From: Nitrospirales bacterium
GTDB lineage: Bacteria; Nitrospirota; Nitrospiria; Nitrospirales; UBA8639
Reading direction: 5' to 3'
NCBI GenBank assembly: GCA_029261355.1
Contig: JAJDBM010000010.1
Location: 186,001 to 250,000, forward strand
DNA: 64,000 bases
Shown: piece by piece, positions 3,120 through 51,629 of the stretch
Layout: every line of letters starts with the position of its first letter
Position numbering within the stretch: position 1 is the stretch's first letter
Translations under genes and position numbers: made by a program
The notes under the pieces: generated by a model
Seen by the model: the letters and a program-made list of their open reading frames with translations, nothing else
Databases searched by the model: none
Told to the model about the DNA's origin: nothing

Positions 3120-3435
3120 CCGTCGATCTTAGCCAACGCTTGGACTGATGTCTATAGCCGTTTCAATGAATTTCCGTACCCTTGAAGCATTTGATACCGC
3201 GTTGAAAGTTCGTATGGTTACGCTGGAACGTCTTTGGATTCACTATAGTGCTCCTTAAGCGTATCGCTCTTGAAGCGTCGTTCGTTCCTCGAGCGTGTGT
3301 GCTGTAGCGATCAAGGGGGCAAGCATGAAACGTAAAAGCGCAGTACTGAGACTCTTCTTACGAGATATGAATGCCGAGATCCGTTTTTATCTCGCTCATG
3401 ATGTTTCGTGGTCACAAGGAGATTCAGCAGTTAGG
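3120..3435. other. Intergenic region upstream of the XRE gene
   Basis: About 315 bases that must carry the promoter of the minus-strand XRE gene and the 3' end of the dnaE2 transcript. A short plus-strand open frame at 3295-3483 runs antisense into dnaE2 and has no convincing start. I see no clear operator or terminator. Confidence 0.4.
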
Positions 3436-7645: not shown

Positions 7646-7720
7646 TGTGGAGGTACGCTCTTCTATAGCAGGAAATAAGGGGCTCTAAGGAACTTGAACG
7701 TCTTAATGTCTTTGCCCTGA

Positions 7721-7739
7721 ATGTATCCAATGGTTACAT
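7721..7739. promoter_or_regulatory. 19-bp palindrome upstream of imuB-dnaE2, candidate SOS operator
   Basis: The sequence ATGTATCCAATGGTTACAT matches its reverse complement at 16 of 19 positions (ATGTAnCCAnTGGnTACAT). It lies 76-94 bases upstream of the imuB start codon, where a LexA-type operator for an inducible imuB-dnaE2 operon would be expected. It does not look like the Escherichia (CTGT-N8-ACAG) or Bacillus (GAAC-N4-GTTC) SOS boxes. Assigning it to LexA is inference. Confidence 0.5.
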
Positions 7740-7944
7740 TTTATGAGGGTTTCTGTCAAGAATTATGGGGACGGTTTTTATGAAATCAAGCTATCTGTGA
7801 TCGTTTCTCACGACGATATTGACTAGGATTCATCGTTATTTAGAATTAGGTAATATTAAGATTCACATATAAAATGTTTTTGCTCTAACGCTCCCTCCAG
7901 TAAATGCAGACCCTAAAGTTGTTTGGAACGATTAAAGAGGAATG

Positions 7945-9756
7945 ATGATCCGAATTAGTCAAGGACATTGGGGAATAGGTGTCATGACTTGTTTGTTTGC
8001 GTTTGTTTTTATGCCGGAACTGATGTTTGCGGAATTGAGCCCAACCCAGATTGTCATTGTGTCCAATGAGAATAGTAATGAAAGTCAATCGGTAGCGGCG
8101 CACTATGCTCGGAAACGAGGAGTCCCTGTATCACACATTATTTCCGTGGATACTTCGACACAAGAAACGATTAGCCGAGAAGGGTATGAACAGTCTATCG
8201 TTCAGCCCATTCGAAAAGCGTTAGAGATGAAAAACCTTGCTTCGACAATCCGTGTGATCGTCACGACGTACGGGATTCCCCTTCGTGTCAAGGCTCCTCG
8301 TATTTCTCCACAAGAAAAGACATGGGTCGATGATGCGAAGGCTTGGCGAACATCATCGATTGAGTTTCTTGAAGAGCTCAAAAATGATATCGAGCAGATT
8401 GCGATTTCGGAGTCCCATGTCATACCAAATCATTCTCAATCGTCTGACTTCAGTCATTCGAAGCTGGATACGCGGACCATTGAATTGTTTGTTCAGAAAG
8501 TGAGTCAATCCATTGCGCAGGCTACTCGCCGAATTGATCAATTAGAAGATTCCAACAATACGAGGGGTTCTCATCATCGCGTTCTCGAAAAAGTCATTCA
8601 GCGCATCAATGGTTTAGCTGGAAAATCGCAGATCTTACGGGGTTTGTCTGAAAAGACTGTGACGCCGGTGGACAGATCATTGACCGCCATTCGCACTCAG
8701 CTTCGTTCGGCGGAGCATCTTATTGCCTTACTGCAAACGAACCCTTCCGAGAAGGGCCGAGAACGTGCCTATCAAGTGGTACAAGAGTATTTTGGTGTGG
8801 TTGGTGTTCTTCGTTTTGCGAACCAAGAAATCGAGCGATTGAGTTATATCCGCGCAGATGCGAGTGTCGATAGTGAATTGAGTCTGCTGTGGTGGGATCG
8901 AGCCCTGGCTCACCCATCAGAGAAACTTCCCAATCCTTTGTATGCCTGGTATCCCGAACATTCTCAAGGGCAGGCACCACAGATTCCTCTTATGATGGTG
9001 AGTCGACTTGATGCGCCAACTGCTGAGTTAGCCAAACAACTGGTTGATCATGCCATGCTTGCCGAGCAAAACGGATTGAAAGGGAACGCCTATTTTGATG
9101 CACGGGGAATGGATTCGGATCGACTTTTGAGTTACGGACATTATGATCGGGATATCCGGATGCTCAGCGAGGCTGTGGAGAAGGTTTCTTCCTACTCGGT
9201 TGTCCTAGAAAACACTGAGGCGCGATTTAGCCAATCAGGCGATGCCCCAGATGTTGCGGTCTATGTTGGCTGGTATCGTCTTCGGCATTATGAAGATGCC
9301 TTTGCCTTTAATCCAGGTTCGATTGGTTATCATATTGCTTCCGGTGAGGCCGTCAGTCTTCATGATCCCATTGAACGAGGGTGGTGTAAGAATGCGTTGG
9401 AACGAGGGATTACCGTGACTCTTGGTCCGATTGGAGAGCCGTATCTTGATGCGTTCCCTTTGCCAACAGAGTTTTTTGGTCTACTGCTCACTGGGAAGTA
9501 TTCATTGGTCGAAGCCTTTTATCTTTCATCGCGTCACGTCAGTTGGCGGATGGTTCTGATCGGAGACCCCTTGTATAATCCATGGCGTGGAAAAGGACTC
9601 GCTCAAAAAGTGAAGGCATCGGGGATGTTGAGGTTACAGACGTTTCCTGTTCCTCCATCCGAGCGATACTTTTTGGATCCGGTTCACGCTCGTACGGCAT
9701 TACAGGAAGAACGGGAGCAAGCCTTGTCCAGGCTCTCACTTGGTACGACGCATTAA
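7945..9756 (+). CDS. Exported TIGR03790-family protein of unknown function
   Basis: A protein of about 603 residues with an N-terminal signal peptide (hydrophobic core GVMTCLFAFVFMPELMFA). Next comes the block typical of the TIGR03790 family: TQIVIVSNENSNES, AAHYARKRGVPVSHIISVD and VIVTTYGIPLRV. An inserted helical, coiled-coil-like region occupies about residues 125-290. The C-terminal half has PDVAVYVGWYRLRHY, GSIGYHIASGEAVS and the end motif WRMVLIGDPLYNPW. The biochemical role of the family is not established. ATG codons lie at 7942 and 7945 after AAAGAGG (7934-7940); the second is better spaced. The stop overlaps the start of the next gene (TAATG), so they are likely co-transcribed. Confidence 0.8.
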   Translation: MIRISQGHWGIGVMTCLFAFVFMPELMFAELSPTQIVIVSNENSNESQSVAAHYARKRGVPVSHIISVDTSTQETISREGYEQSIVQPIRKALEMKNLASTIRVIVTTYGIPLRVKAPRISPQEKTWVDDAKAWRTSSIEFLEELKNDIEQIAISESHVIPNHSQSSDFSHSKLDTRTIELFVQKVSQSIAQATRRIDQLEDSNNTRGSHHRVLEKVIQRINGLAGKSQILRGLSEKTVTPVDRSLTAIRTQLRSAEHLIALLQTNPSEKGRERAYQVVQEYFGVVGVLRFANQEIERLSYIRADASVDSELSLLWWDRALAHPSEKLPNPLYAWYPEHSQGQAPQIPLMMVSRLDAPTAELAKQLVDHAMLAEQNGLKGNAYFDARGMDSDRLLSYGHYDRDIRMLSEAVEKVSSYSVVLENTEARFSQSGDAPDVAVYVGWYRLRHYEDAFAFNPGSIGYHIASGEAVSLHDPIERGWCKNALERGITVTLGPIGEPYLDAFPLPTEFFGLLLTGKYSLVEAFYLSSRHVSWRMVLIGDPLYNPWRGKGLAQKVKASGMLRLQTFPVPPSERYFLDPVHARTALQEEREQALSRLSLGTTH

Positions 9757-31099: not shown

Positions 31100-32236
31100 C
31101 TATTGCGCGATCGCTTCGTTTTTTTGGCTCAAGAGCCCTGCTTGGTCAAGGAGTGCTTCACGTTGTTTGAGGAACGTGGTGTTGTGTGGATCGGTGCGGA
31201 GCAAATTCGACAGGGACCAGAAGGCATCATACCATAATCCGGATCCTGCATAGAGACGAGGGGCTTCTGGTGAAGGGTTATCCTGATTGATCTCAGGTGG
31301 GATGGAAGGAGAGCTTGAAACCCGCTTGATGAGTCCACTGGCTGTGATGGTTTCTTGGTGCGTTCCAGTCATTAGCTTTACGTCCCACCTATAGGAGACA
31401 TCTGGCAGGAGACGAATGCCATAGTCCTTAAGGGAGATGTGATGCATACCGGGTTCAAGAGGAGGGAGGAGGCGCATTTCGAAAACGACTGCAATATCTC
31501 CTTGCTCCGTCAGCATGACATCAATGGGATTGTGTGTAGCTTCAGATAGATACCAGAAAAGGGTCGGTTGCTCATGAATGGTATGACCAAGGTGATTTGG
31601 TGCGAATACAAGAAGATGGGGTCCATCATTTTTGGGTGTTAGTTCCAGAGCCGCTTTTTGAGGCTGCCTTGTGGTTGGGGGCTGGTAACTTAAACCATGA
31701 GATGGAGACTGAGGTTGTAGGTTCAATGGAGAAGTTTGGATTGGCAGAGAGACGGGAGACGAAGGGGTTGGTGTGGTCACGGCAGGGCGGGGCAACTCGA
31801 CAGAGGGGTGGGGTCTCGTGGGTTGAGGGACCGCTTCAGGAAGTGAGGAAGGCTGAGGGGATTTGGTCGAGCCTTTTGCTTCCAGCTTTTGCCCACCCGG
31901 AAGAAACAGTGTGATGAAAAATTGATGTTGGTCTGCTGGTCTAGTCAGGGCCATTGGAGAAAAAAGCTCGTACTGTTCATGGGTGAGGGCTTCGGCTTGT
32001 AAAATAATCTTTCTTTTTTTGTCTTCCTGAGTCAAACGCAATTCTGAGCTCCCAGCAGGTTCAACAAAATATTTACCTGGTTCCACCGTGATAGGAGTGC
32101 CGTCAATTGCCTGGAAGTGTAAGGCTCGGGTTAGAACTATATTGGGTTGACTCGCCCAGACATCCTGGATCCCTAACAACCCAAGAATGCACACCGCTAA
32201 GATCATCATATATTTCATATAATCAAATTGACGCAT
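31100..32236 (-). CDS. Exported DUF928 protein with N-terminal repeat module
   Basis: A protein of 378 residues. After the signal peptide (hydrophobic core MILAVCILGLLGIQDVWA) comes a roughly 90-residue module: NIVLTRALHFQAIDGTPITV, EPGKYFVEP, then FFITLFLPGGQKLEAKGS. Related modules occur twice in the protein at 40.2-41.9 kb. A Pro/Ser/Thr-rich linker (about residues 115-200) joins it to a DUF928 domain (HLLVFAPNHLGHTIHEQPTL, FWYLSE, LKDYGIRLLPDVSYRWDVKL). DUF928 is common in cyanobacteria and related loci that also carry CHAT or two-partner secretion proteins; its role is unknown. GGAGG before ATG 32236 fixes the start. Confidence 0.82.
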   Translation of the reverse strand: MRQFDYMKYMMILAVCILGLLGIQDVWASQPNIVLTRALHFQAIDGTPITVEPGKYFVEPAGSSELRLTQEDKKRKIILQAEALTHEQYELFSPMALTRPADQHQFFITLFLPGGQKLEAKGSTKSPQPSSLPEAVPQPTRPHPSVELPRPAVTTPTPSSPVSLPIQTSPLNLQPQSPSHGLSYQPPTTRQPQKAALELTPKNDGPHLLVFAPNHLGHTIHEQPTLFWYLSEATHNPIDVMLTEQGDIAVVFEMRLLPPLEPGMHHISLKDYGIRLLPDVSYRWDVKLMTGTHQETITASGLIKRVSSSPSIPPEINQDNPSPEAPRLYAGSGLWYDAFWSLSNLLRTDPHNTTFLKQREALLDQAGLLSQKNEAIAQ

Positions 32237-33244
32237 AACGTCCTCCGCACGAATTATACACATGATGAGGTCACGTGTTGTGTTTTATCTATGGGGGTAA
32301 GCGATTTCCTGTATTGTAATATCATTAACTCTACTTATGCCACTATTGTCACGTGAGGTAACAGGACCTGTAAATTCCTATCGTGGTCTGTTCCCTCACG
32401 GTTGTTGCACCATATTCTCGAAGGATAGGTATCAAGCTGATTGCATAGCTTTTCCAACTTTAGTATGACCTATCAATCGTCTCTAACCGATCAGTTTTAA
32501 TATCTGGCATTTGTCCGTAGATCAAACTACGTAAATACGTAGGGAAGTATTAGGAATTCAACTTTCTTGTAATTATTTTTTTGTGACCGATTCGTCCTTA
32601 TGGGGGCTACAATGTGGGGCCATTGATCGCGATTCATCCTATCCGGCGAATGGTATCTGTGTTTCTTTGATATCTCTTTCTTAGTTTTCTCAGCAGCAGT
32701 CTCAATCAAGGTAGTCAGGCAGAGAGCCTTTTCCTGCGCATGAGAAAGTCGTTCTGTTTCTACTATGGGAATCTTGAAAAAATCCGTCAGCGGGGTTCTT
32801 GCCCTCTCGCTCTCTGAACGCGATATATCGTTCTGAGCTGGACGAAAGGACTGCGGCCTTGTTGGACGAACTTTTTTGAACATTCCCTTACATTCATGAT
32901 CTGAGTCTCGACCAGAGGATTGATCAGCCATTGAAATGAAATATTCAACAGCCCCACTGTCAGAGAACAGGGAATTTCGTTGAATACATTGGTGAAGGGA
33001 TCTTCCTCCTCTGTATGAAGTCGAACCCCTACAGTTCGCCATTTTTAATCGAGATTGGGTACGAAACGAAGCGACATGTAACCTATTGAAAATTTGGATA
33101 TTTATGGTTGATGGTTCATATGGACATTTAAGGGAACATGATTTGCTACTCATTTATATGACAACGCTCAATGCAATGGCCAGTACAAGGAAATCAGCAT
33201 TGAGGATCTGGGTGATGGACCGTATTACAACAGGAGGTGTTCTC
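32237..33244. other. Gene-poor kilobase with one doubtful open frame
   Basis: This stretch separates the DUF928 gene from the small exported protein. A minus-strand frame of 208 codons (32527-33153) could encode a basic protein from an internal Met at about 32931. There is no ribosome binding site and no recognisable domain, so I give it little weight. A plus-strand frame from 33086 merges into the next gene but lacks a start signal. Confidence 0.4.
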
Positions 33245-40165: not shown

Positions 40166-41899
40166 TTAGTATTTCCAAGAATGGGTATAGGAGAATGCGG
40201 CATCAACTGGTGATAGGCCAACTCCGACACCAGGGCCAAACCCAAATCCTTGAAACTGCTTGACCTTTTCATCAAGCATGACATCAACTGCTCCAGAAAC
40301 AATCTTGGATGGAGGACCAGCTGATATTCCAATCCCAGAACCCCATCCTTTGAAGGAGTCTAACGAAACTTTAGGGAAGAAGGCGACTTCAGCTGTGAGG
40401 CCAACTGTGGCATTGGTGACTCCTTGAGGGCCGATAAACCAATACTTGCCACCATTGCCACGCAAATCTGTGACGCCCATTAGCCCAACTTGCAATCCGA
40501 TGCCGATGCCTCCTCCGAGTGTGATCTGATAACCCAAATAAAAATGTTCGTCTTGAGCTCCTCGTGAGCGCACCAAAGCGAACTTAGGCACCATACCCAG
40601 TTGCATAAGTTTTTTATCCATCATAGAGACTGAATCACTGCAAAAGGTGTTCGTACTAAAGATAGCATCCAACTTCTTTTTGGTCTTGTTCATAGACTTT
40701 GCGATTCTTTTTAACTCGGGGATTTTTGCTTTGTGTGTTTGAAGGTTATGCGTGATCTTGGCTATGAGCTGATCATGAAAACTTTTGTCATTTTTAAATC
40801 GATTCTCTGCATTTTTATTTTTTCTTTTGGCTGAGGGAATCACATTCTTCATGAATCCCGCTACGGTTTTTCCTCCCTTAATTAATCCAACGGTTGCCTT
40901 ACAAGCTTGAATCTTGGCGAACTTTGCCGTTTGTTGAGCGATCTGCTTGGCCTTTACTGCAGCCATCTTCGCGGCATGCTCAGCAGCTCGCTTGGCTTTC
41001 AAGGCTGCTTGACTCGCACCCTTCCCCACTTTTTTGGCAGTACTCCCTATGCTTCGTCCTGTTTTTCTGGTCGTGCCTCTTGCTTTTCTGTATGTCCGGC
41101 TTGCTCGCTTCTTGGCTTTATTCAATGATTTCTTGAAGTTAAATCCGCGTGGTTGAATACCACTATACGATCCTGTGGCTTCGAGAGTTTCCCCGGTTGG
41201 CAAGAGGAGCATCATGTGGTGAAGATCTAATTCATTTTCTGTCGAGCCAGGCAGGGATAAGGCAATGAGTGCGTCAATTTCCGTATCGTTCGTACCTTTC
41301 TGTGTCTCAATAAGAAGTGCCTTGCGTCGTTCTTTACCAGGGATTAAGCGGATCCAATCTTGTGCGTCTTCTGCGGTATAGGTTCCAGGTTCAGCTATCA
41401 CAGGACTGCCGTCAGGCGCAATAAAGTAAACGGCTTTCTCAAAGGTGACCGTGGTTGGACTACTTGGGAGATCTACGTCCTCAGAAATTCCCCGGCTTCG
41501 GATTCCAGGATACGTACCAATGGCCTGAAGCGCCTGCCCATTTGGAAGGTAGAGAATTACTAGATGGGTATTGGCTAACGGTCCATCTTGTCCAGGAATT
41601 GAGGCGGCAGTCGCAAGGGGAATTTCAGCGTCATGAGAATTCTCATTTGCGTCAATTATGATAGAGGTCTTGGAGTCGCTTGAGGAAAGAGATAATGTGC
41701 CATTACCTGCACTGACCGCATAGGTGCCTGATTCTATCATAATTTCTTCGCCTTGAGGATCTTCAAATTTAACTGCTTTGTCCAAAATAATCATGGTGGG
41801 CGATTTTTCTGGACTGGCAGCCTGGACTATCGTGCTAAGGCTCAATAGTCCGCAGGCGAGTAGGCCAATTAACAGATTTAAGAGACGAGGGTATCTCAT
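40166..41899 (-). CDS. Exported multidomain protein with tandem modules, basic linker and glycine-rich C-terminus
   Basis: A protein of 577 residues with a signal peptide (LLIGLLACGLLSLSTIVQAA). Two related modules of about 100 residues follow: first MIILDKAVKFEDPQGEEIMI ... LVILYLPNGQALQAIGTYPG, then VTFEKAVYFIAPDGSPVIAE ... HMMLLLPTGETLEATGSYSG. Each ends in IxxRG. A third copy begins the DUF928 protein at 31.1-32.2 kb. Residues about 255-330 are extremely Lys/Ala/Arg-rich, reminiscent of histone H1 tails. The C-terminal 150 residues are Gly-rich beta structure, possibly a barrel or surface domain (GGGIGIGLQVGLMGVTDLRG, FGFGPGVGVGLSP). I do not recognise the whole. AGGAG precedes the ATG. 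Confidence 0.78.
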   Translation of the reverse strand: MRYPRLLNLLIGLLACGLLSLSTIVQAASPEKSPTMIILDKAVKFEDPQGEEIMIESGTYAVSAGNGTLSLSSSDSKTSIIIDANENSHDAEIPLATAASIPGQDGPLANTHLVILYLPNGQALQAIGTYPGIRSRGISEDVDLPSSPTTVTFEKAVYFIAPDGSPVIAEPGTYTAEDAQDWIRLIPGKERRKALLIETQKGTNDTEIDALIALSLPGSTENELDLHHMMLLLPTGETLEATGSYSGIQPRGFNFKKSLNKAKKRASRTYRKARGTTRKTGRSIGSTAKKVGKGASQAALKAKRAAEHAAKMAAVKAKQIAQQTAKFAKIQACKATVGLIKGGKTVAGFMKNVIPSAKRKNKNAENRFKNDKSFHDQLIAKITHNLQTHKAKIPELKRIAKSMNKTKKKLDAIFSTNTFCSDSVSMMDKKLMQLGMVPKFALVRSRGAQDEHFYLGYQITLGGGIGIGLQVGLMGVTDLRGNGGKYWFIGPQGVTNATVGLTAEVAFFPKVSLDSFKGWGSGIGISAGPPSKIVSGAVDVMLDEKVKQFQGFGFGPGVGVGLSPVDAAFSYTHSWKY

Positions 41900-42172: not shown

Positions 42173-43195
42173 CTATTGATGTCGGAACCACCGTGTGACG
42201 CGTAGGGCTTCCCCAGCAGTTTTTGCGAAAAAGGTGGTGGGGAGAAGTTGTTGGTCTTGTTGTAAGCCTGTGGTAATGGCGAATGGCGAAGGGCTCCGGC
42301 GTGCTGTCGAAAATCCTTGCGGAATAACTGGAGCTTCTGTGACTTGGTGTGGTCTGTCACTTGGGAGACGTTCGTGTCCAGCGATGCGAGTCATAATGGT
42401 TTCAATGTCATTTCGTTTTTTATGAGAGGCGACAAAAAAGATGGTTTCAATTCCCTTAAACTGGTCAAGGCTAAACCAATTGTTGCCTTCAGGAATCATA
42501 TATTGCTGGTTCGCGCTGACGGGGTTAGCAAAGGGGTTTCCAGGTGGAGGGAAGACACCTTGTGCCCAAGCTGAGCCATCAATGGAGATCACATACACAA
42601 AACCATTCGACTTCGATCGAAACATGATGCGAAATTTATCGCCTGCTTGCGCATTGCCTCGTCCATCCCTCATCACGTCCCCATCATGAATCGGTAATAA
42701 TGTGACTGCACCGTTGTGGGCCGTTTTACGTACGAGTAAGACATCTAATGCAATCGGACTCGTGTCTTCTGATATTTGGCTATAGAACTCTTCGTCATGC
42801 CCTTCTTGGCTTGGTTGGAATGATGAATCTTCATGTGGGTGTTCTGAATATTCATTGTCCCCGTCTTCTGGGTAGTTTTGATTCTGAAAAAATTGTTCTG
42901 AGGAGTTTTGATTGTGAGGGGATTGGTACTCATCAGAGGAATAGGGCGTGGCCCCTTGCTCTGAATCGTTCCCGATCATCTGTGAAGAAGAATTAAGTTG
43001 TGGCTGTCGAAGTGATACCATCAGATCTTGCAGGTCATTGTTATACGGTTTGTCATAATTATTGAGGGCAGTGTGTAGCAATCCTGCAGAGAAGTCGATG
43101 AGTGGTGGGATGATGAACGGGAGTGCGGCACATCCTCCAAACATGAAAGAAATGAGAAGGACATGAAGGTGTGATGGCCAATGTCTGTGTTTCAT
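42173..43195 (-). CDS. DUF4384 lipoprotein (copy 1)
   Basis: A protein of 340 residues with a lipoprotein signal (SFMFGGCAAL). A low-complexity, Asn/Gln/Ser/Glu-rich linker covers about residues 60-145. The DUF4384 domain lies at about 150-270: DGDVMRDGRGNAQAGDKFRI, GFVYVISIDGSAWAQGVFPP, NPVSANQQYMIPE and GIETIFFVAS. The C-terminus, FFAKTAGEALRVTRWFRHQ, is nearly identical in copy 2. DUF4384 commonly accompanies caspase-like or kinase domains and is thought to sense or bind in the envelope; its biochemical role is unknown. The gene is 43 bases downstream of copy 2 and probably in one operon with it. Confidence 0.85.
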   Translation of the reverse strand: MKHRHWPSHLHVLLISFMFGGCAALPFIIPPLIDFSAGLLHTALNNYDKPYNNDLQDLMVSLRQPQLNSSSQMIGNDSEQGATPYSSDEYQSPHNQNSSEQFFQNQNYPEDGDNEYSEHPHEDSSFQPSQEGHDEEFYSQISEDTSPIALDVLLVRKTAHNGAVTLLPIHDGDVMRDGRGNAQAGDKFRIMFRSKSNGFVYVISIDGSAWAQGVFPPPGNPFANPVSANQQYMIPEGNNWFSLDQFKGIETIFFVASHKKRNDIETIMTRIAGHERLPSDRPHQVTEAPVIPQGFSTARRSPSPFAITTGLQQDQQLLPTTFFAKTAGEALRVTRWFRHQ

Positions 43196-43238
43196 CTACC
43201 TATTTCTCAGTCATTCTTCCTGTAAAGAAGAGAGCGAA

Positions 43239-44564
43239 TTATTGATGTCGGAACCAACGAGTGATGCGGAGATCTTCTCCTGCCGTTTTTGCCAAAAAGC
43301 TCGTTGGGATGATTTCTTGTTGTCCCCCATTGGAGAGCGCGACATCAAAGGAGGAGTGACTTGGTTGTGATTTGGCGTATCCGTTTGGAATGATCGGAGC
43401 TTTGGTGACCTGCTGAGGAGTCGAAGATGCCAGTCTTTCTCTTCCCATGATCCCTTTGAACAAATCTTCAATGTCCTGACGTGGTTCCGAGGAGGCGATA
43501 AAGAAAATTGTTTCAATTCCTTGAAATTGGTCAAGACTAAACCAGTTTGACTGTTCGGGTATTACATATTGTTGATTGGTTTTTACCGGGTTGGCAAAGG
43601 GAGTCGTGGGTGAAGGGAAAATGCCTTGTGCCCAGCCTGATCCATCAATTGCAATGACGTAGACAAAGGCGTCACTATTTGGTCGGAACATAATACGAAA
43701 CTTATCACCTGCGTGAGGGTTTCCTCGTCCGTCTCTTAGAAGGTCTCCATCTTTGATGGGAAGGATGACAGGTGTTCCATTTCGTGTGGTTTTTTTCACC
43801 AATGCGACATCGAGACTGATAGCCGGTCCATGCGATTCATATTCATCTTGTTGCTCATAGTTCTTTTCTTGTTGGCTATATTCAGTTCCATCTTGATTAT
43901 AGTTTTGATCAGATTGATTGGGGTTGTATCCATTTTGCTCGTCCTCATAGGACTGTCCGTCTGTTCCGACTTGTTGCTGATCGCAAGGGTTGTCCTGTGG
44001 TTCTCCGACGGAAAATCGTCCAATCCCACGAGAGACTGGCTGGTCAACGTTTGAGTCATAATCTGTATCTTGAGCATATTGATATTGCTCATCATCAAAG
44101 CCCTGGTCTATCCCTTCTCCATCTTGCTCTTGATCATCTTGGTAGGGGTCGATGCCTTGCTCAAAATCACCTTGATCGGAATAGTCCTGTCCATCGCCAG
44201 TGTAAGTCTGTTCGTCTTGGGAATACCCTTGGTTATCATCGACAGGGAATTGATCTTGGGTGTTGTTGTCAGGCTCGTGTTGTTGTCGATTCCGTTTTCT
44301 TAACCATTTTGGTGTGACGAGTTTGGTTAGAAATTTATCAAGTTTTCCCGTATATTTTTGACTATAGTTTGAGGCTGCTGTGGCAAGTAAGTTACCACCA
44401 AAACTCATCAGAGAGGTCGTGAACTGATTCTGGAGAAAACTTGAGGCAGAAGATGGTGCTTGAGATGGGCAGGGGTTACCAGAAAGATGACTCGTTCCTG
44501 TTGGGGTGGCACAGGAAGATACAAATATCAGCAGAACAATAAGAGCGATAGATCGTTTCAGCAT
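43239..44564 (-). CDS. DUF4384 lipoprotein (copy 2) with long acidic Gln/Tyr-rich linker
   Basis: A protein of 441 residues with a lipobox (LIFVSSCATP). It is a paralog of the gene downstream. The DUF4384 block is GDLLRDGRGNPHAGDKFRIM, AFVYVIAIDGSGWAQGIFPS, NPVKTNQQYVIPE and GIETIFFIAS. The C-terminus LAKTAGEDLRITRWFRHQ matches copy 1. The linker (about residues 95-255) is an Asp/Gln/Tyr/Gly-rich low-complexity region, strongly acidic and probably disordered. It would let the DUF4384 domain extend from the membrane. The two linkers differ while the domains are conserved, which argues for an old duplication. Confidence 0.85.
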   Translation of the reverse strand: MLKRSIALIVLLIFVSSCATPTGTSHLSGNPCPSQAPSSASSFLQNQFTTSLMSFGGNLLATAASNYSQKYTGKLDKFLTKLVTPKWLRKRNRQQHEPDNNTQDQFPVDDNQGYSQDEQTYTGDGQDYSDQGDFEQGIDPYQDDQEQDGEGIDQGFDDEQYQYAQDTDYDSNVDQPVSRGIGRFSVGEPQDNPCDQQQVGTDGQSYEDEQNGYNPNQSDQNYNQDGTEYSQQEKNYEQQDEYESHGPAISLDVALVKKTTRNGTPVILPIKDGDLLRDGRGNPHAGDKFRIMFRPNSDAFVYVIAIDGSGWAQGIFPSPTTPFANPVKTNQQYVIPEQSNWFSLDQFQGIETIFFIASSEPRQDIEDLFKGIMGRERLASSTPQQVTKAPIIPNGYAKSQPSHSSFDVALSNGGQQEIIPTSFLAKTAGEDLRITRWFRHQ

Positions 44565-44730
44565 ATACGTACCTCTATAGAGCCGGTTCCATTCATGATT
44601 AAGGGGTTGACCACACTCAACTATCGCATGACATTCTATGCCTTTTTTTTAAGAGGGGTCAATGAATTTGCTTTAAAGAACGGTTTGGATTCACGGTTGT
44701 GAAGTGAGTCGGGTGCTGTTGGACTTTGGT

Positions 44731-45435
44731 TCATTCGTTTGCTGGTGTGGCAGATCGAACGATTGTTGGCTGTGCCAGGAGAGTCTCCAGACTTGCCTCT
44801 ATTGGAGTCAGGTCATTGGTGGATATTTTGAGTACGTAGGCGCCGTCTAGAGATGGGCCACGTATAATCTGTGCATGAATGAGCTGAAGTAAGCCCTGAA
44901 TTTCGCTTTGAGTTGCCGTTTCAGTAAAGATGATATGAATGTGGTGTGACTCTGAAGGTGATGGGGCTTGAGGTATTCCCCGAGGGACGACAGGCTCCCA
45001 GTCAGGTAAGGTTTGATTGTTCCCGAGGTTGGTCATGAGGAGTGCCGATTGTCCCACAATGACTATCGTCGCGAGGACTGGCACCCATGGAACAGTAAAG
45101 AGGGATTGAATCCAGGCTTGGATTTGTTTCAGGAGGTTTGGGCCTGTATGAGACTTTCGTTGTATGGTTGTTTCAGCTGATGATTGTTCTTCTCGAATTC
45201 TGGCCATGACTTGCTCGAATACGACGGATGAGGGTCCAGTTTGTTCATTGATGGAAGCTTTCACTGCAGCTCGTGTGCGTTTCATCTCATCGAGTTCTAT
45301 TTGACAGCGCTCACAATTGGGTAAGTGAGTTTCAACGTCTTGTTTTTCTTGACGATCCAAGGTGTCAGTGAGATACCAGGGAAGCAATGTCGCTTCATGG
45401 TGAGTCGACGGATCGAGTTGGTCAGATTCATTCAT
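44731..45435 (-). CDS. Anti-sigma factor with zinc-finger HC2 domain
   Basis: A protein of 234 residues. The N-terminal anti-sigma zinc-binding motif is ETHLPNCERCQIELDEM (His-x3-Cys-x2-Cys). One membrane helix, VPWVPVLATIVIVGQSALLM, lies at about residues 115-135. The periplasmic C-terminal domain, HIHIIFTETATQSEIQGLLQ then IIRGPSLDGAYVLKI, resembles the beta-alpha-beta domain found in several anti-sigma factors and looks somewhat like a peptidase propeptide fold. It should hold the adjacent ECF sigma factor at the membrane until a signal arrives. It overlaps the sigma gene by 4 bases. Confidence 0.88.
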   Translation of the reverse strand: MNESDQLDPSTHHEATLLPWYLTDTLDRQEKQDVETHLPNCERCQIELDEMKRTRAAVKASINEQTGPSSVVFEQVMARIREEQSSAETTIQRKSHTGPNLLKQIQAWIQSLFTVPWVPVLATIVIVGQSALLMTNLGNNQTLPDWEPVVPRGIPQAPSPSESHHIHIIFTETATQSEIQGLLQLIHAQIIRGPSLDGAYVLKISTNDLTPIEASLETLLAQPTIVRSATPANE

Positions 45436-46016
45436 AGCATGGTCTCACTAAAGCCTAATGCATGCATGTGGCCTTTGAGTTGTTGTTTGGCATAAAACAC
45501 ACGAGTTTTCACGGTATTCATGGGTATATTTAATAATGATGAAATTTCTTGATAGGGTAATTCTTCAAAAAATGCCAAATGGAGCACTTCGCGATGATCG
45601 GGAGACAGGTCTTTCATGGCCTGGGTGGTTAATTTGGCTAATCCCTTTTGTTGAACGTGATCTTCAGGGCTATCACCGACGTCAACCGTTTCTTCCGCAT
45701 CATCTAATGAGACGGAACTTTGACGGTGACTCGAGACTCGTCGAATGGCATCAATACCTTTATGGTGCGCGATCCCAAATATCCACGTCGAAACTTTTGA
45801 GTCTCCACGAAATTTTCCTGCATTTTTCCAGACCGCGACCATCACTTCGACCATGGTCTCTTCCGTCAGAGTAGGGTCCCCGAGCATGCTGATGAGATAT
45901 TGAAAAATTCGCTTTTCATATCGGTGATACAATGCTTGAAAGGCTTCTTCATCCCCTTGCCCAGCCTCAGAGGTCAAGTCTTGATCACTTCTGTCATGTA
46001 CGTCAGTCGTTGTCAT
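45432..46016 (-). CDS. ECF-type RNA polymerase sigma factor
   Basis: An ECF (group 4) sigma factor of 194 residues. Region 2 runs AFQALYHRYEKRIFQYLISM to DSKVSTWIFGIAHHKGIDAI. Region 4 is LSPDHREVLHLAFFEELPYQ then EISSLLNIPMNTVKTRVFYA. There is no region 1.1 or 3. It is followed by its anti-sigma gene with a 4-base overlap and is divergent from the metacaspase gene, whose upstream region is a natural target. Confidence 0.93.
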   Translation of the reverse strand: MTTTDVHDRSDQDLTSEAGQGDEEAFQALYHRYEKRIFQYLISMLGDPTLTEETMVEVMVAVWKNAGKFRGDSKVSTWIFGIAHHKGIDAIRRVSSHRQSSVSLDDAEETVDVGDSPEDHVQQKGLAKLTTQAMKDLSPDHREVLHLAFFEELPYQEISSLLNIPMNTVKTRVFYAKQQLKGHMHALGFSETML

Positions 46017-46143
46017 GGTCAGGGATGTTCACTGAGGTGTGTCAATGGGGCACCGATTCTCTATCTTCTTGACTTTATCCCAACTAACACATTTCATCAA
46101 AACCCTCAAGAGACGTTCTCTTGATCTTGCTAAAATTGAATTA

Positions 46144-46156
46144 TTGAGACTCTCAA
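46144..46156. promoter_or_regulatory. 13-bp palindrome in the sigma/metacaspase divergent region
   Basis: TTGAGACTCTCAA is a perfect palindrome with one central base, lying between the ECF sigma and metacaspase start codons. A related TTGAGAGTT occurs at 46181-46189. It is a possible operator for an unidentified regulator. Confidence 0.4.
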
Positions 46157-46249
46157 TGAGACTAATACTCTGAATCCAACTTGAGAGTTGATACAATGAA
46201 GATTAGACTAGGAATAACTAACATTTTCAGGATTTTCAAGAGGGTCAAT

Positions 46250-48496
46250 ATGAACATTCCAACGACACATGCTCGAGCTCACTATCTGGTCATAGGGTGT
46301 GTCCTGTGTTTCACGCAAAGCTTTCTCTGGGTGGGGCCTGTTTTTTCGGAACCATCTCCAGATCCCATACGCCGGGCACTGCTTATTGGCATTGGCAAGT
46401 ATCAAGAATTGCCGAGGCTTCCTGGCTCCAAGAATGATATGAACTTGGTTCATCAAGTATTGCAGACGCGATATGGGTTTGCTGAAAAGAATATACGTAT
46501 TGTGCGCGATGAGGAAGCCACGCGCGAGAATGTTTTGTTGGCCCTGACGCAGTTTGTCTCTGAGGTTGGTTCTCGTGATGTTGCGTATATTCACTACTCG
46601 GGTCATGGATCACAAGTGGAAGATGTGAGCGGAGATGAAACTGGCGATGAGTTGGATGAAACCATTGTTCCTTATGATGGAAGAACCGAAGGGGTCCCTG
46701 ACATTACTGATGATGAACTTGAGGAGATTTTGTCGAAGTTGAAAACCAATACCGCGATTGTCGTGTTGGACTCTTGTCATTCCGGCACCGCGACTCGCGG
46801 ATTGGAAGTTAGAGTGCGTTCGGTACCCCGAGACACGCGTGTTGCCCTGTATAAGCAATCCATGGTGCGTACACGAGCCATTGTGCCCTTGGCGTCTGCT
46901 CGGTATGTATTGATGAGTGGGGCGGCATCACATGAAGAGGCACTCGATGGGCCGGTTGATGGTCGATACCATGGGTTTTTCACCCATTCTTTATTTAAAA
47001 GCCTTCAGTTAGCGGATCCTGATGCTTCGGCCTCTGAGGTCTTTGCAGGAGCCAAGCGAGAGCTCAAACGGATTCAAAATCAGTTTGGACGGTCGAGTAT
47101 GCCTGAACCACAGCTCGAAGCTTCAAAAAGTCGCTTAGAGCAACCTCTTTTCATGCATAATCCAAGTGTGGCCCAGACAGTCGGCCCTGCAAAGGCGGGA
47201 GAGACTCGACGACCATGGGTCAGCCTGATGAATCAAGCTAAAGGCAAGGTGGTGTTATCTAACGCTGTCGCACTTGGAGGGTCCGTCGGATCGGTGTGGG
47301 GAATTTACCCCAACGGAGAAGCAGATTTTAATCCGGGACAGGCCAAGGCTTTTGCCAGAATCGTCAGCACTAAAGGCAGTCATTCCCTGGCGAATGTTGA
47401 GCCGCAAGGTCTCTCAATTCCAAATGGTGCACGAGCAGCTCTATTAGTTTCTGCTCCGCCATCAGGACGAATTCCTGTACGTCTCCGAAGCGTTGACCAA
47501 GCAAACCACGAATGGCTACAAGAAGCGTTGCAACAGCGGTTAGGGGAGGTAGAGATTGTTGGCGAAGGAACCTTTGCTCGATTTGTAGTTGATGTGAAAG
47601 GGAAGAATCTTCATGTCTATAGTGCTGATGCTGCGAAAGAAATCGCTGCGTTACCAGCGTCCAGATCTGCTAACTCAGTTGATTCGCTTGCTCAAATCTT
47701 GACGCAATCGCGCAATGCCTCCAGTCTTTTAGCTATGGAAAACCCTGCTACTCGGATGACATTGGATGTTCGTGTTGTGCAAGTTAGTGATCGTGGCATT
47801 GCGGTCGTGAGTGACAGAATGGAAGCTCCCGCTTACCGCATTCGTCGAGCCGGAAGTCCACGCACGTTGACGAATAGTCTACAGCTTGAAATTTCGACGG
47901 ACACGGATAGCTATATCACGATCATGGATGTGGATGCCGAGGGAATTGTGAATGTACTCTTTCCTAATCCATATACAAAGAAAGGGTTCTATCCAGATGG
48001 GTTTATCAGAGCCAATAGGTCGGTCTTGATTCCAGATTCTCTTCGTTCCGGGAATCGGGCTGGTTTCCATTTCGATTATGCGAATCCTGCAGGTGTGGAT
48101 ACTATTCGTGTCTTTGCCAGCACAGATCGTCGATTAGCCGAGAAAATTCGTCAATCTGTTCAACCTGGCAGATCTGGATCGATGAAGGTTCGACGACCGA
48201 TCACACAATTAACCAGCTTACGTCAGGAACTAGTTGGCAGTCTGACTCGAGGTCTTATCACTGTCCCTGATGAACCGGTGTCTCAGTTGAGTCAAACGCC
48301 AATTCACCCCAACACTTCAATGATGATTCAAGGCCAAGAGTTTGTTGAAGCCAAACAAGAACAATACGAGGAAGTGTCCATGGGGGAACCAGAACCTGAG
48401 TCAGGGGCTGGGCGCAATGATTTTCAAGCCATTCCAGTTCAACAACATATTTCTGACTGGACTGCGGCTTCTGTGACAGTGTTGGTTGGAGAATAA
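46250..48496 (+). CDS. Exported metacaspase (peptidase C14) with DUF4384-like domain
   Basis: A protein of 748 residues with a signal peptide (YLVIGCVLCFTQSFLWVGPV). The caspase-like domain at about residues 35-280 has the catalytic His in IHYSGHGSQVED (about 119) and the catalytic Cys in VVLDSCHSGTATRG (about 176). Bacterial metacaspases cleave after Arg or Lys, often with calcium, but the specificity here is inferred. A linker region follows, then a DUF4384-like domain at about 550-660 (LEISTDTDSYITIMDVDAEG, IVNVLFPNPYTK). ATG 46250 has AGAGGG upstream; the frame opens earlier at TTG 46181. It shares its upstream region with the ECF sigma gene. Confidence 0.9.
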   Translation: MNIPTTHARAHYLVIGCVLCFTQSFLWVGPVFSEPSPDPIRRALLIGIGKYQELPRLPGSKNDMNLVHQVLQTRYGFAEKNIRIVRDEEATRENVLLALTQFVSEVGSRDVAYIHYSGHGSQVEDVSGDETGDELDETIVPYDGRTEGVPDITDDELEEILSKLKTNTAIVVLDSCHSGTATRGLEVRVRSVPRDTRVALYKQSMVRTRAIVPLASARYVLMSGAASHEEALDGPVDGRYHGFFTHSLFKSLQLADPDASASEVFAGAKRELKRIQNQFGRSSMPEPQLEASKSRLEQPLFMHNPSVAQTVGPAKAGETRRPWVSLMNQAKGKVVLSNAVALGGSVGSVWGIYPNGEADFNPGQAKAFARIVSTKGSHSLANVEPQGLSIPNGARAALLVSAPPSGRIPVRLRSVDQANHEWLQEALQQRLGEVEIVGEGTFARFVVDVKGKNLHVYSADAAKEIAALPASRSANSVDSLAQILTQSRNASSLLAMENPATRMTLDVRVVQVSDRGIAVVSDRMEAPAYRIRRAGSPRTLTNSLQLEISTDTDSYITIMDVDAEGIVNVLFPNPYTKKGFYPDGFIRANRSVLIPDSLRSGNRAGFHFDYANPAGVDTIRVFASTDRRLAEKIRQSVQPGRSGSMKVRRPITQLTSLRQELVGSLTRGLITVPDEPVSQLSQTPIHPNTSMMIQGQEFVEAKQEQYEEVSMGEPEPESGAGRNDFQAIPVQQHISDWTAASVTVLVGE

Positions 48497-48657: not shown

Positions 48658-49320
48658 TTAACTGGGTTTTGCCAGTGACCGTGCCACTTGGAACGCGGCT
48701 TCCATGTCTGGCATTTGAGCAAGTTCTGGGGTGACTTGAAGGTAGCGAACTACGTTTTCTTTATCGACAACAAGTACGGCTCTTGACAGAATATGTGGTT
48801 CTTGAATGAACAGGCCATGTTTTCTCCCAAACTGTCCGCCTCGATAATCTGAGAAAAAAGTCACATTCTGAATCTGTGCCTCTTTGGCAAACCGATCTTG
48901 AGCAAATGGAGTATCGATGCTCACGGTGAGTAACTCTACGGTTTTATCCAGTCCATTATTCTTCTCGCTTAGGTAGTGCGTTTGTTGTTCGCAGACTTTT
49001 GTATCAAGAGAAGGTACCACGCTGATAACCCGAATCGTCCCCTTCGTATCAGCTATGTCGATAAGAGATAGATCATTTTTCGCGACCTGCACATGACGAA
49101 GCACGTCCCCAACTTTAATTCGAGTTCCCGATAGGGCAAAGTTTTTTCCGTGAAGGGTCACAGAAGTTCCTTCTCCGACCAAAATGGTTTTCTTCGTGAC
49201 TGGAATGTCTTTATAGATAAACCCTTGTCGGTTTTCAGTTTGAGTTGTTGTACAACCCACGAGAGTCAATAGACTAATGGTCGCTATGACAAGAGTCGTT
49301 GGTTTTTTGAACGATCGCAT
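48658..49320 (-). CDS. tpx: Lipoprotein thiol peroxidase lacking the resolving cysteine
   Basis: A protein of 220 residues of the Tpx family of atypical peroxiredoxins. A lipobox (LLTLVGCTTT) targets it to the envelope, which is unusual for Tpx. The peroxidatic Cys is in VPSLDTKVCEQQTHYL. In ordinary Tpx the resolving Cys follows LPFAQxRFC; here the block reads TPFAQDRFAKEAQIQ, so it is Ala. The only other cysteine in the protein is the lipidated one. It must therefore be reduced by another thiol (1-Cys mechanism) or serve as a sensor. Confidence 0.88.
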   Translation of the reverse strand: MRSFKKPTTLVIATISLLTLVGCTTTQTENRQGFIYKDIPVTKKTILVGEGTSVTLHGKNFALSGTRIKVGDVLRHVQVAKNDLSLIDIADTKGTIRVISVVPSLDTKVCEQQTHYLSEKNNGLDKTVELLTVSIDTPFAQDRFAKEAQIQNVTFFSDYRGGQFGRKHGLFIQEPHILSRAVLVVDKENVVRYLQVTPELAQMPDMEAAFQVARSLAKPS

Positions 49321-49676
49321 GGTGTTCTCCTCTTCGTGAGTGTCGTTGTTTCTGGGACTGAGACGTGAAGGTCTGAGTATGCACTATTCATTTTGGCATA
49401 ATAGGCATACCAGAAGAAATCTGAATAAGAAAAAGCTAAGGGACGTGTGTCGCAAATTGTTGGTTTTGTTCACGTTCCCTGATGAATCTTCTTGAGACCC
49501 ACCTTTTTGTTACTTCTCATTGCCTAAAAATGGCTTGATATGTCATTTCGGTTCATGAGAGATGAGGTGGATCTCATACGTTCCGAAAAAGAGGTATACT
49601 GTCGATGTGCATGTGTCGGGTTGATAGGGTGGTAGGCGAGACGGGGTACTGAATTCAACGTTTTGAATGTTCCTTC
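49321..49676. other. Divergent intergenic region
   Basis: About 355 bases between the lipoprotein peroxidase and the cyclase-repeat gene. It must hold two promoters. I see a short imperfect GATGAG ... CTCAT repeat near 49560-49580 but no firm signal. Confidence 0.35.
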
Positions 49677-50582
49677 ATGCGTAAGAGACTGCTCCAATCT
49701 ACTTTAACCGATATCATGAAGAGAAACTTGTCGGATGGTGGGTTTTCCAATCAACCCCATGGCATGTTTCGTCCCGATGCCACAGCTTGGGCCATGATAA
49801 TCTTTAAGACGCAAGCTGGTCATGAGGAATTAGTCGAAGCTGCTGGAAAACGATTAGAACGTTCTCAGATAATTGATGGGCGTGTTGTGCTCTCTCAGGA
49901 TCATCTCGATGCGGTTTGGCCAACGCCATTATCTATTCTTGCCTGGCAGGGATCTTCATCCAGCAAAGACTCTTGGAGTAAGGCCGTCGCGTTTCTGCTT
50001 CAGGCCGCAGGAGTCCATTGGGAAAATACTGATCAAGCTTTGGTCGGACATGATACTCTTATTCCTGGTTGGCCATGGAGTGAGGACACGCATTCATGGG
50101 TGACGCCAACGGCAATGTCAATGCTGGCTTTAGCCTCCGCTGGGTTTCGAGAGCATGAGCGAGTGCAGGCTGGCGTTCGCTTATTGGTTGATCGGCAAAT
50201 ACCCAGTGGAGGGTGGAATTATGGGAACACGTCAGTGCTTGGAAAAGAGCTTCGTCCTTTTCCTGAAACCACAGGATTGGCATTAAACGCTTTGGCTGGA
50301 CATGTGAAACAAGAGCAGATCCAATCAAGTTTGGAATTTCTTCTTGAGCATGTTTCAACTTTTCGTACGCCTCTTTCTCTAGGGTGGTCAATTTTAGGGC
50401 TCAGGGCTTGGCATATAGTTCCAGACCTTGCGCCCGAGTGGATCAATGAAACGCTTGAGCGAGGTCATCGCTTTGATGGGTATGATACCGCATCCCTGTG
50501 TGTGCTGTTGGCTGCGGGTCTTGCCACAGGCGGCCTAGAAAGTTTACTGCCGTCAGTGCCTCAAGAGAGCCGTTTATATTAG
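49677..50582 (+). CDS. Prenyltransferase/squalene-cyclase-repeat protein
   Basis: A 301-residue all-helical protein with several terpene-cyclase-type alpha/alpha repeats: LSDGGFSNQPHG, THSWVTPTAMSMLALASAGF, IPSGGWNYGNTSVLGKELRP and FPETTGLALNALAG. The QW-like PSGGWNYG is typical of the fold. No clear DxDD or DxDDTA catalytic motif is visible, so enzymatic cyclase activity is doubtful. It is followed 27 bases later by a Tat-exported DUF362 gene and then a DUF5069 gene, suggesting an operon. There is no signal peptide. Confidence 0.8.
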   Translation: MRKRLLQSTLTDIMKRNLSDGGFSNQPHGMFRPDATAWAMIIFKTQAGHEELVEAAGKRLERSQIIDGRVVLSQDHLDAVWPTPLSILAWQGSSSSKDSWSKAVAFLLQAAGVHWENTDQALVGHDTLIPGWPWSEDTHSWVTPTAMSMLALASAGFREHERVQAGVRLLVDRQIPSGGWNYGNTSVLGKELRPFPETTGLALNALAGHVKQEQIQSSLEFLLEHVSTFRTPLSLGWSILGLRAWHIVPDLAPEWINETLERGHRFDGYDTASLCVLLAAGLATGGLESLLPSVPQESRLY

Positions 50583-50609
50583 GGCGTAAGAGAAATTGAT
50601 CTAACCGGT

Positions 50610-51629
50610 ATGTCCCAACAATCAACCAATTTTTTGACATGGACGAGGCGTCAGTTCCTTAAGTTGTTTCTGGCTGGAAGTTCTCTTGCGGCCTCATCAG
50701 TTTCCGTCCCGATGGTCGGGAACGCATCAGACGTTCGATCTCAAGTATTTGTCGGAAAGGCTCCTACGTATGATGGAAATATTCGTGCAATTATTGAACG
50801 AGGGTTTCAGGAGTTAGGCGTTTCAAAGGCAGAAATTCATGGGAAAAAGATTTTTTTGAAACCGAATCTTGTTGAAACACATGTTGAACATGCACACATT
50901 AATACCCACCCACTTGTTGTTCGTGCGGCCATTGAGGCTTTTCTTAGTCTTGGTGCTCGACAAGTGGTCGTGGGCGAAGGGCCAGGACATCGGCGAGATG
51001 CTTTACATATTTTGGAAGAATCAGGTCTTGGTCCAATTTTGTATGAAGACCGTATTCCATTCATCGATTTAAATGAACAGACAGGGTATGCGGTCAAAAA
51101 CCAAGGAGAGTGGACGTCCCTTTCTACCTTAACGTTTCCAGGGGTGTTCCATGATGTCGATTGGATTATCTCGATGCCTAAATTGAAAACACATCATTGG
51201 GCTGGGGTGACCTTGTCGATGAAGAATCTTTTTGGTGTAATGCCAGGTCTCTATTACGGTTGGCCGAAAAATGTGTTGCACCACCAAGGTATTCACGAAT
51301 CTATTTTAGATATCACGGCCACATTGAAACCACATTTTGCGATTGTGGATGGCATTGTTGGGATGGAAGGTGACGGTCCAATCATGGGTTCTCCAAAGTC
51401 TATGGGGGTTGTGGTCATGGGGCGAAATCTTCCAGCTGTCGATTCAACCTGTGCGCGGTTAATGGGGATTGATCCTTATCAGGTTCCTTATTTGAATGCG
51501 GCTGCTGATTGGCTAGGCCCCATTAATGAAGAGCGTATCTATCAACGTGGGGACTCCATCGGGTCGCTTCAGCAAAATTTTTCCTTGCTTCCCCACATTC
51601 CAGCTCATCAAAGATTACGCTTGAGCTAA
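50610..51629 (+). CDS. Tat-exported DUF362 protein
   Basis: A protein of 339 residues. A twin-arginine signal (WTRRQFLKLFLAGSSLAASS) targets it across the membrane folded. The DUF362 domain shows KKIFLKPNLVETHVEHAHIN, TVHP-like NTHPLVVRAAIEAF, VVVGEGPGH, SMPKLKTHHWAGVTLSMKNL and IVDGIVGMEGDGPIMGSPKS. Many DUF362 proteins are fused to ferredoxin domains; this one is not. The function is unknown, though Tat export suggests a bound cofactor. It is second in the three-gene cluster. Confidence 0.88.
   Translation: MSQQSTNFLTWTRRQFLKLFLAGSSLAASSVSVPMVGNASDVRSQVFVGKAPTYDGNIRAIIERGFQELGVSKAEIHGKKIFLKPNLVETHVEHAHINTHPLVVRAAIEAFLSLGARQVVVGEGPGHRRDALHILEESGLGPILYEDRIPFIDLNEQTGYAVKNQGEWTSLSTLTFPGVFHDVDWIISMPKLKTHHWAGVTLSMKNLFGVMPGLYYGWPKNVLHHQGIHESILDITATLKPHFAIVDGIVGMEGDGPIMGSPKSMGVVVMGRNLPAVDSTCARLMGIDPYQVPYLNAAADWLGPINEERIYQRGDSIGSLQQNFSLLPHIPAHQRLRLS

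Follow-up and report, generated by a model that had tools for sequence, protein, structure and literature searches.

An exported metacaspase, a transmembrane anti-sigma factor and a polymorphic exported family of Nitrospirales bacteria share a candidate arginine cleavage motif

We analyzed a gene island of a Nitrospirales bacterium within a 64,000-nucleotide stretch of its genome (hereafter the window; contig JAJDBM010000010.1, positions 186,001 to 250,000 of the forward strand, GenBank assembly GCA_029261355.1, 4.63 Mb). The island comprises five genes, encoding an exported metacaspase-type protease, an extracytoplasmic function (ECF) sigma factor, its transmembrane anti-sigma factor, and two lipoproteins with DUF4384 domains. 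All five are present where an earlier note on this DNA had placed them, and Pfam domains were assigned to each product. Our interpretation, held with moderate confidence, is that the metacaspase acts outside the cytoplasm as the site-1 protease of the anti-sigma factor and as the processor of exported proteins that carry the same site. It builds on a short motif of metacaspase type, [IV]-x-x-R-[GSA]-[IVLFM], which recurs in the protease, in the anti-sigma linker and in a polymorphic family of exported proteins. The functional unit reaches past the range first noted, to a member of that family encoded at 40166-41899.

The protease gene (46250..48496, plus strand) encodes a signal peptide, a C14 domain, middle beta domains, a DUF4384 domain (47876..48127) and a disordered C-terminal region, as assigned from Pfam (Peptidase_C14, 1.4e-27; DUF4384, 1.8e-15), orthologs and an AlphaFold2 model. 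The ATG at 46250, which yields the signal peptide MNIPTTHAR...VFS, is a more likely start than the TTG at 46181. The earlier description of an exported caspase-like enzyme with its histidine and cysteine in place and a DUF4384-like C-terminus is thereby confirmed; ortholog alignment places His119 in the motif HYSGHG (46592..46609) and Cys176 in DSCHSG (46769..46786), and this dyad is invariant across 23 orthologs. Asp63, Ser117 and Asp174, the latter two lying within the same motifs, are likewise invariant in the 23 orthologs and correspond by motif position to the S1-pocket residues Asp95, Ser156 and Asp211 of TbMCA2 (PMC4357240). On this alignment, an acidic S1 pocket for Arg/Lys specificity is conserved, in predicted form, in the window caspase, whose best relatives with solved structures are metacaspases.

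The caspase itself contains two predicted self-cleavage sites that match the motif, VRTRAI in the p20/p10 linker (residues 206-211; 46865..46882) and VSDRGI in the loop preceding DUF4384 (residues 512-517; 47783..47800). A looser site, SLTRGL (residues 664-669; 48239..48256), stands at the start of the disordered tail, at a place where Nitrospira orthologs have the strict motif (IATRGI, VKTRGV). The three arginines (R209, R515 and R667) all fall within segments of the AlphaFold2 model with a predicted local distance difference test (pLDDT) score below 50, spanning residues 207-212 and 513-523 at the first two sites. Metacaspase assays employ the peptides Ac-VRPR and Ac-VRTR, CrMCA-II being strictly Arg-specific (PMC10896300), and MALT1 prefers LVSR (PMC6207715); VRTR is the sequence of the window caspase's own loop.

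Divergent from the protease, on the minus strand, lie the genes for the ECF sigma factor (45432..46016; Pfam Sigma70_r2/r4, NCBIfam, conserved neighbor) and the zf-HC2 anti-sigma factor (44731..45435; Pfam, alignment, AlphaFold2), which overlap by 4 bp (ATGA, 45432-45435) as originally described. Sigma regions 2 and 4, the zf-HC2 domain and the gene overlap identify the two as an ECF sigma factor with a class I anti-sigma factor. The anti-sigma protein crosses the membrane by a helix at residues 117-138 (45022..45087), placed from AlphaFold2 secondary structure and from hydrophobicity judged by eye. This is followed by a disordered juxtamembrane linker at residues 140-156 (44968..45018; pLDDT < 50), and within the linker alignment and structure prediction locate the predicted caspase site VVPRGI at residues 149-154 (44974..44991). 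Directly beyond the membrane helix the sequences cannot be aligned except at Arg152, which is invariant; across the caspase-linked set the linker sites include VVPRGI, IIERGI, VTTRGL and ISTRSV. Beyond the linker, residues 163-231 form a compact C-terminal periplasmic domain (44743..44949) with a beta-alpha-beta-beta-alpha-beta order and a subtilisin-propeptide-like fold in the AlphaFold2 model. It has no match to Pfam I9, and Foldseek returns subtilisin propeptides among generic ferredoxin-like folds, the best E-value (8e-3) being to unrelated proteins. Since these matches are weak and the topology is generic, the likeness to subtilisin propeptides is one of fold resemblance only.

The motif was counted against expectations from shuffled sequences. 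The juxtamembrane linker contained it in 25/25 caspase-linked anti-sigma factors (27 sites against 2.7 expected), and two further anti-sigma factors found later also have it (VLPRSV at locus L270, VVERGI at L271), bringing the total to 27/27, or 14 clusters at 50% identity. The caspases hold 78 sites where 11.2 are expected and the lipoproteins 26 where 2.3 are expected. Of the two negative controls, the ECF sigma factors have 2 sites (2.2 expected), and 166 other neighboring genes give a weak signal of 46 sites (33.4 expected). None of the 17 closest anti-sigma paralogs, which match in zinc finger, helix and C-terminal domain (L072-L077, L082, L083, L273-L280, L282), has the motif; for 8 of these 17, Pfam confirms an S8 subtilase as neighbor. 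The regular-expression match in L281, an anti-sigma factor of different architecture, is a chance one that falls in its membrane helix region. By these counts and the structure predictions, the motif is specific to caspase-linked proteins and placed in disordered linkers, and we infer that it is a cleavage site and that the caspase is the enzyme that cuts it.

Another periplasmic protease (trypsin-like, HtrA or subtilase) might instead cut the motif, or the motif might serve for binding and stay uncut, the caspase being a co-regulated passenger in either case. In favor of this, the C-terminal domain of the anti-sigma factor resembles a subtilisin propeptide, and paralogous anti-sigma factors adjoin subtilases. 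We nevertheless regard this explanation as unlikely: the paralogs, subtilase-linked where their neighbor was identified, are precisely the ones devoid of the motif, the caspase bears it in its own disordered loops, and it agrees with known metacaspase peptides. The paralogs themselves belong to a parallel gene set, widespread in the phylum and apparently unnamed, of an ECF factor, an anti-sigma factor with the subtilisin-propeptide-like domain and, where confirmed, an S8 subtilase (L072-L077, L082, L083, L273-L280).

Downstream of the second lipoprotein gene, the minus-strand gene 40166..41899 encodes an exported protein of the polymorphic family, here called cargo, whose members adjoin the module in most loci. 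It has an undescribed domain of about 105 residues in two copies, each ending in the motif, followed by a Lys/Ala-rich region and a Gly-rich C-terminus; the predicted sites are IRSRGI at the end of the first domain copy (41486..41503) and IQPRGF at the end of the second (41141..41158). The domain has no Pfam match above cut-off. Throughout the family it occurs in one or two copies that end in G-x-x-SG-[IV]-x-x-R-[GSA], the commonest site form being [IV]-R-[SP]-R-[GA] (for example IRSR, IRPR and VRSR). The C-termini that follow vary, including PAN, PI-PLC-X, Amidase_2, Peptidase_M19 (dipeptidase), beta-helix, FG-GAP, CARDB, collagen and TIG domains as well as regions of no recognized kind, and the 53 cargo proteins scanned matched 17 different Pfam families, most with one member each.

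The distribution of the cargo domain was followed across 98 relatives and the source genome, 99 genomes of the order in all, several of which are fragmented metagenome-assembled genomes (MAGs); the named relatives are Nitrospirales, Nitrospirae and Nitrospira MAGs. At least 2 copies, and up to 16, are found in 13 of the 14 genomes that have a full-length caspase ortholog, the remaining one (G081) having 1 copy. Genomes G039 and G041 have 11-12 copies, seven have a single copy (G002, G003, G004, G025, G031, G042 and G043) and the rest have none. The single copies of G002, G003, G004, G025 and G042 have no Arg site, and that of G043 is a fragment. In the source genome, six more motif-bearing cargo genes form an array 70 kb away, headed by the gene of a second exported caspase, one with fused WD40 repeats (L235:6314-9847, at about 152-156 kb of contig C10), and similar pairs occur in at least eight relatives. 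Two side observations concern this family. The window also encodes a single-domain cargo member at 31100-32263 whose domain ends with no Arg site, and the nearest caspase genomes have orthologs that are equally site-less. At L138, beside a Nitrospirae caspase, three exported proteins of very different lengths (2949-3476, 4723-6483 and 6702-9298) have a common N-terminal sequence ..QVQERA[VI]P, with the same type of motif right after the signal peptide, and possibly represent a second cargo family.

Taken together, we propose that the active exported caspase would cut after the arginine of one common site, [IV]-x-x-R/[GSA]-[hydrophobic]. It would mature itself through cuts in the p20/p10 and pre-DUF4384 loops, and a further cut would fall in the anti-sigma factor, within its disordered periplasmic linker and only a few residues beyond the membrane. 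This site-1 cut would be followed by intramembrane and cytoplasmic proteolysis, freeing the ECF sigma factor. The caspase, or the WD40-caspase, would also part the shared N-terminal domain of proteins of the 40166-41899 type from their variable C-terminal modules. More generally, and somewhat more cautiously, we lean toward the view that Nitrospirota and some other bacteria possess one or two exported caspases with a site code common to the caspases, the anti-sigma factor and the polymorphic family, this code being switched on or off with the type of the neighboring protease, caspase or subtilase.

Several observations weigh against this proposal. The motif was first seen by eye and then counted, mostly in the same sequences, which leaves few as a genuine out-of-sample test; the best protection comes from the comparison with the paralogs, from the sigma and background controls and from the few out-of-sample cases. 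The genomes compared are related within one order and are not independent. The window's own two lipoproteins do not have the strict motif, and the gammaproteobacterial caspase orthologs at L133, L135, L136, L142 and L161 have neither the motif nor such an anti-sigma factor. Among the cargo proteins, one (G037) has lysine instead of arginine, and G031, a genome without the island caspase, has the near-motif VQIRD. The cargo-rich genomes G039 and G041, both fragmented MAGs, have no detected ortholog of the island caspase, G041 having a WD40-caspase; standing beside the cargo arrays, the WD40-caspase may be the true cargo protease.

The gene set as a whole is conserved. The 14 of 99 genomes with a full-length caspase ortholog are exactly those with a lipoprotein (E < 1e-30), and anti-sigma factors (E < 1e-27) occur in these 14 and in G003, where the caspase is short and lacks DUF4384 and the lipoprotein is missing. 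An identical set of 14 among 99 has a chance scale of 1/C(99,14) = 2.6e-17, the true significance being lower through relatedness. The co-occurrence lies far above chance. Wherever contigs allow, the module genes are adjacent, in two layouts: in the family of the window the caspase is divergent from ECF, anti-sigma and lipoprotein genes, and in the other family, comprising Nitrospira-type loci, ECF, anti-sigma and caspase genes stand in a row and the lipoprotein gene is divergent. The module has been kept through this rearrangement, which argues for functional linkage. Its description in the earlier note as a coherent, envelope-facing and undescribed system therefore holds, with co-occurrence and adjacency seen in two families of the order and, in part, among Gammaproteobacteria, and with no paper describing it found in the open-access literature. 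Outside the phylum, Gammaproteobacterium GL140 (L130) has the ECF factor, anti-sigma factor and caspase, and Chromatiales (L133) and Pseudomaricurvus (L137) have a caspase and a tailed lipoprotein without the sigma pair. Because the latter two keep the pair alone, the association of caspase and lipoprotein may be older than its coupling to a sigma factor. A different wiring of the same domains is seen in a Chromatiales MAG, where a Ser/Thr kinase-DUF4384 fusion and an unrelated ECF factor are encoded divergently from a caspase ortholog (L161:7407-9849).

The earlier note had placed the ECF factor on top, transcribing the protease and the lipoproteins as an envelope-stress or cell-death regulon in which the lipoproteins would be sensors or substrates. 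ECF factors commonly control neighboring genes, adjacency is kept in both layouts, and in both the window and Nitrospira the sigma gene is preceded by a conserved promoter-like element, TTGAGGG-N11-AAATGTGTTAG. In an alignment of the intergenic regions from ten Nitrospira-type and seven same-family loci, however, the lipoprotein gene of the Nitrospira-type loci was found to have its own conserved, sigma-70-like promoter (TTGACC-N17-TACAAT), which differs from the element before the sigma gene, and no common ECF-type motif emerged across these regions. Sigma control of the whole island is thus unproven, the search for a shared ECF-type promoter element having been negative or inconclusive, and a sigma factor on top would leave the Arg motif in the anti-sigma linker unexplained. 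We therefore consider that model doubtful. Control probably runs the other way, with the protease upstream of the sigma factor, as the caspase-type cleavage motif of the anti-sigma linkers suggests.

The two lipoprotein genes lie on the minus strand at 43239..44564 (lipoprotein 1; Pfam, alignment) and 42173..43195 (lipoprotein 2; Pfam DUF4384, comparison). Lipoprotein 1 consists of a lipobox, a conserved N-terminal segment, a low-complexity linker, DUF4384 and a C-terminal TRWFRHQ tail, and both proteins have a lipobox cysteine (SSC, GGC). Their paralogy is clear, with 62% identity over the last 194 residues (120/194); the near identity claimed for their C-termini applies only to the last 20 or so residues (17/21) and not to the wider C-terminus. 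The tails read ITRWFRHQ (43242..43265) and VTRWFRHQ (42176..42199), and [IV]TRWF-x-H is conserved in all aligned lipoproteins of the family. The earlier suggestion that the lipoproteins may be substrates is supported in part: most of those in Nitrospira have a putative site directly before DUF4384 (VYPRSV, IYPRGV, VRPRSV), whereas the window pair offers a relaxed candidate in the linker of lipoprotein 1, PVSRGI (44022..44039), short of the strict motif. They are probably outer-membrane or periplasmic partners of the caspase, with a docking or regulatory function and, in Nitrospira, a second role as substrate; with low confidence, we put forward DUF4384 and the invariant TRWFxH tail as candidates for caspase control. 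We rejected the tail as a tag on other proteins, the short open reading frames (ORFs) that encode it alone being decayed 3' ends beside lipoprotein arrays. Such ORFs, at L042:1201-1281, L196 (~4379, ~5092), L197 (~4451, ~5162) and L194 (~4569), cover only the last 10-50 lipoprotein residues (..TAGEDLRITRWFRHQ); they lie downstream of the arrays and also occur in a few genomes without the module, and look like relics of lost lipoprotein copies.

The invariant tail also bears on a sortase- or transamidase-like role, in which this clan CD enzyme would cut at arginine and anchor the variable cargo C-terminus at the surface, the TRWFxH tail being part of an acceptor or docking site. Some clan CD enzymes, such as PorU and GPI8, are transpeptidases, and the cargo order of N-terminal domain, site and variable C-terminus is that of a removable leader. 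No acceptor is known, though, the anti-sigma and self-cleavage sites require hydrolysis only, and the sequence relatives with solved structures are hydrolytic metacaspases, which makes such a role improbable.

Very improbable, in our judgment, is an anti-phage or abortive-infection system with the caspase as executioner. The caspase has a partial match to a PADLOC caspase model (64.6 bits, profile positions 5-158 of 453), and TPR-CHAT genes are next door to the module in L130 and G003, yet no other island protein has a PADLOC match. Moreover, defense caspases are cytoplasmic, whereas the island exports its caspase, lipoproteins and cargo and relies on a transmembrane anti-sigma factor as its switch. 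TPR-CHAT proteases adjoining the module were located at L141:5434-7974 (Nitrospirales NPIRA02) and L130:4667-7285 (a gammaproteobacterial MAG). On the other side of the island, the window genes at 48658-51629 (a peroxiredoxin-like lipoprotein, a SQHop_cyclase-like protein and DUF362) were rejected as module members because their conservation is limited to the nearest genome.

To our knowledge, few natural substrates of bacterial caspase homologs have been identified. The genome studied here appears to supply them, through a short conserved motif common to the protease, the regulator and an exported family, and the subtilase-linked paralogs provide a ready-made negative control for that motif. 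If our interpretation is correct, Nitrospira-type bacteria would have metacaspase-driven regulated proteolysis in their envelope, a bacterial parallel to the Arg-directed signaling of MALT1 and metacaspases. Protease-released ECF signaling is already known, and an exported caspase with a shared site code would be a variant of it.

Among known systems, the RseA/DegS/RseP cascade likewise has a transmembrane anti-sigma factor that binds sigma in the cytoplasm and has a flexible linker in the periplasm for the predicted first cut, but the candidate site-1 protease of the island is an adjacent, putatively Arg-specific exported metacaspase rather than a PDZ serine protease, and its site is a conserved sequence motif common to other proteins. 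In Craspase (Csx29-Csx30-CASP-sigma, PMC10028731) and in CalpL-CalpT-CalpS and SAVED-CHAT (PMC11417357), a protease also relieves an anti-sigma factor and frees an ECF sigma factor, and Craspase and SAVED-CHAT likewise use a caspase-clan protease. These cascades, linked to clustered regularly interspaced short palindromic repeats (CRISPR), operate in the cytoplasm and respond to target RNA or cyclic oligoadenylate, whereas the island protease and its target linker are extracytoplasmic. Cutting of Csx30 requires no particular residue (PMC10028731), in contrast to the invariant Arg152 of the island anti-sigma factor. No cas genes appeared among the Pfam-scanned neighbors, no search aimed at cas genes having been made, and the caspase protein comprises a signal peptide, C14 and DUF4384 only, with no CARF/SAVED or TPR-CHAT domain. 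Although it would work like both, the island belongs to neither the RseA-type nor the CRISPR-linked cascades: it uses an exported caspase in place of a PDZ protease, and this enzyme has no domain for sensing RNA or nucleotides.

Closer at hand are the ECF/zf-HC2/S8 subtilase clusters, whose three-part anti-sigma factors, with the same propeptide-like C-terminal domain, are direct paralogs in the same genomes; in these a subtilase replaces the caspase and the linker has no Arg motif. Polymorphic toxins with caspase-like releasing peptidases (PMC3482391) resemble the cargo family in their shared N-terminal domain, variable C-terminal module and caspase-like processing. Their peptidase is fused in cis, whereas that of the island is separate and would act in trans; Amidase_2, PI-PLC-X and Peptidase_M19 do occur among the cargo C-termini, but many others (PAN, CARDB, collagen, TIG) are not toxin-like, and a regulator has the same site. 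Finally, an association of DUF4384 with orthocaspases and metacaspases is mentioned in the literature (PMC7475262, PMC6426788, PMC8283722), and these enzymes have the C14 domain and His-Cys dyad in common with the island caspase, which differs from them in its export and in its association with a sigma/anti-sigma pair, with tailed lipoproteins and with motif-bearing cargo.

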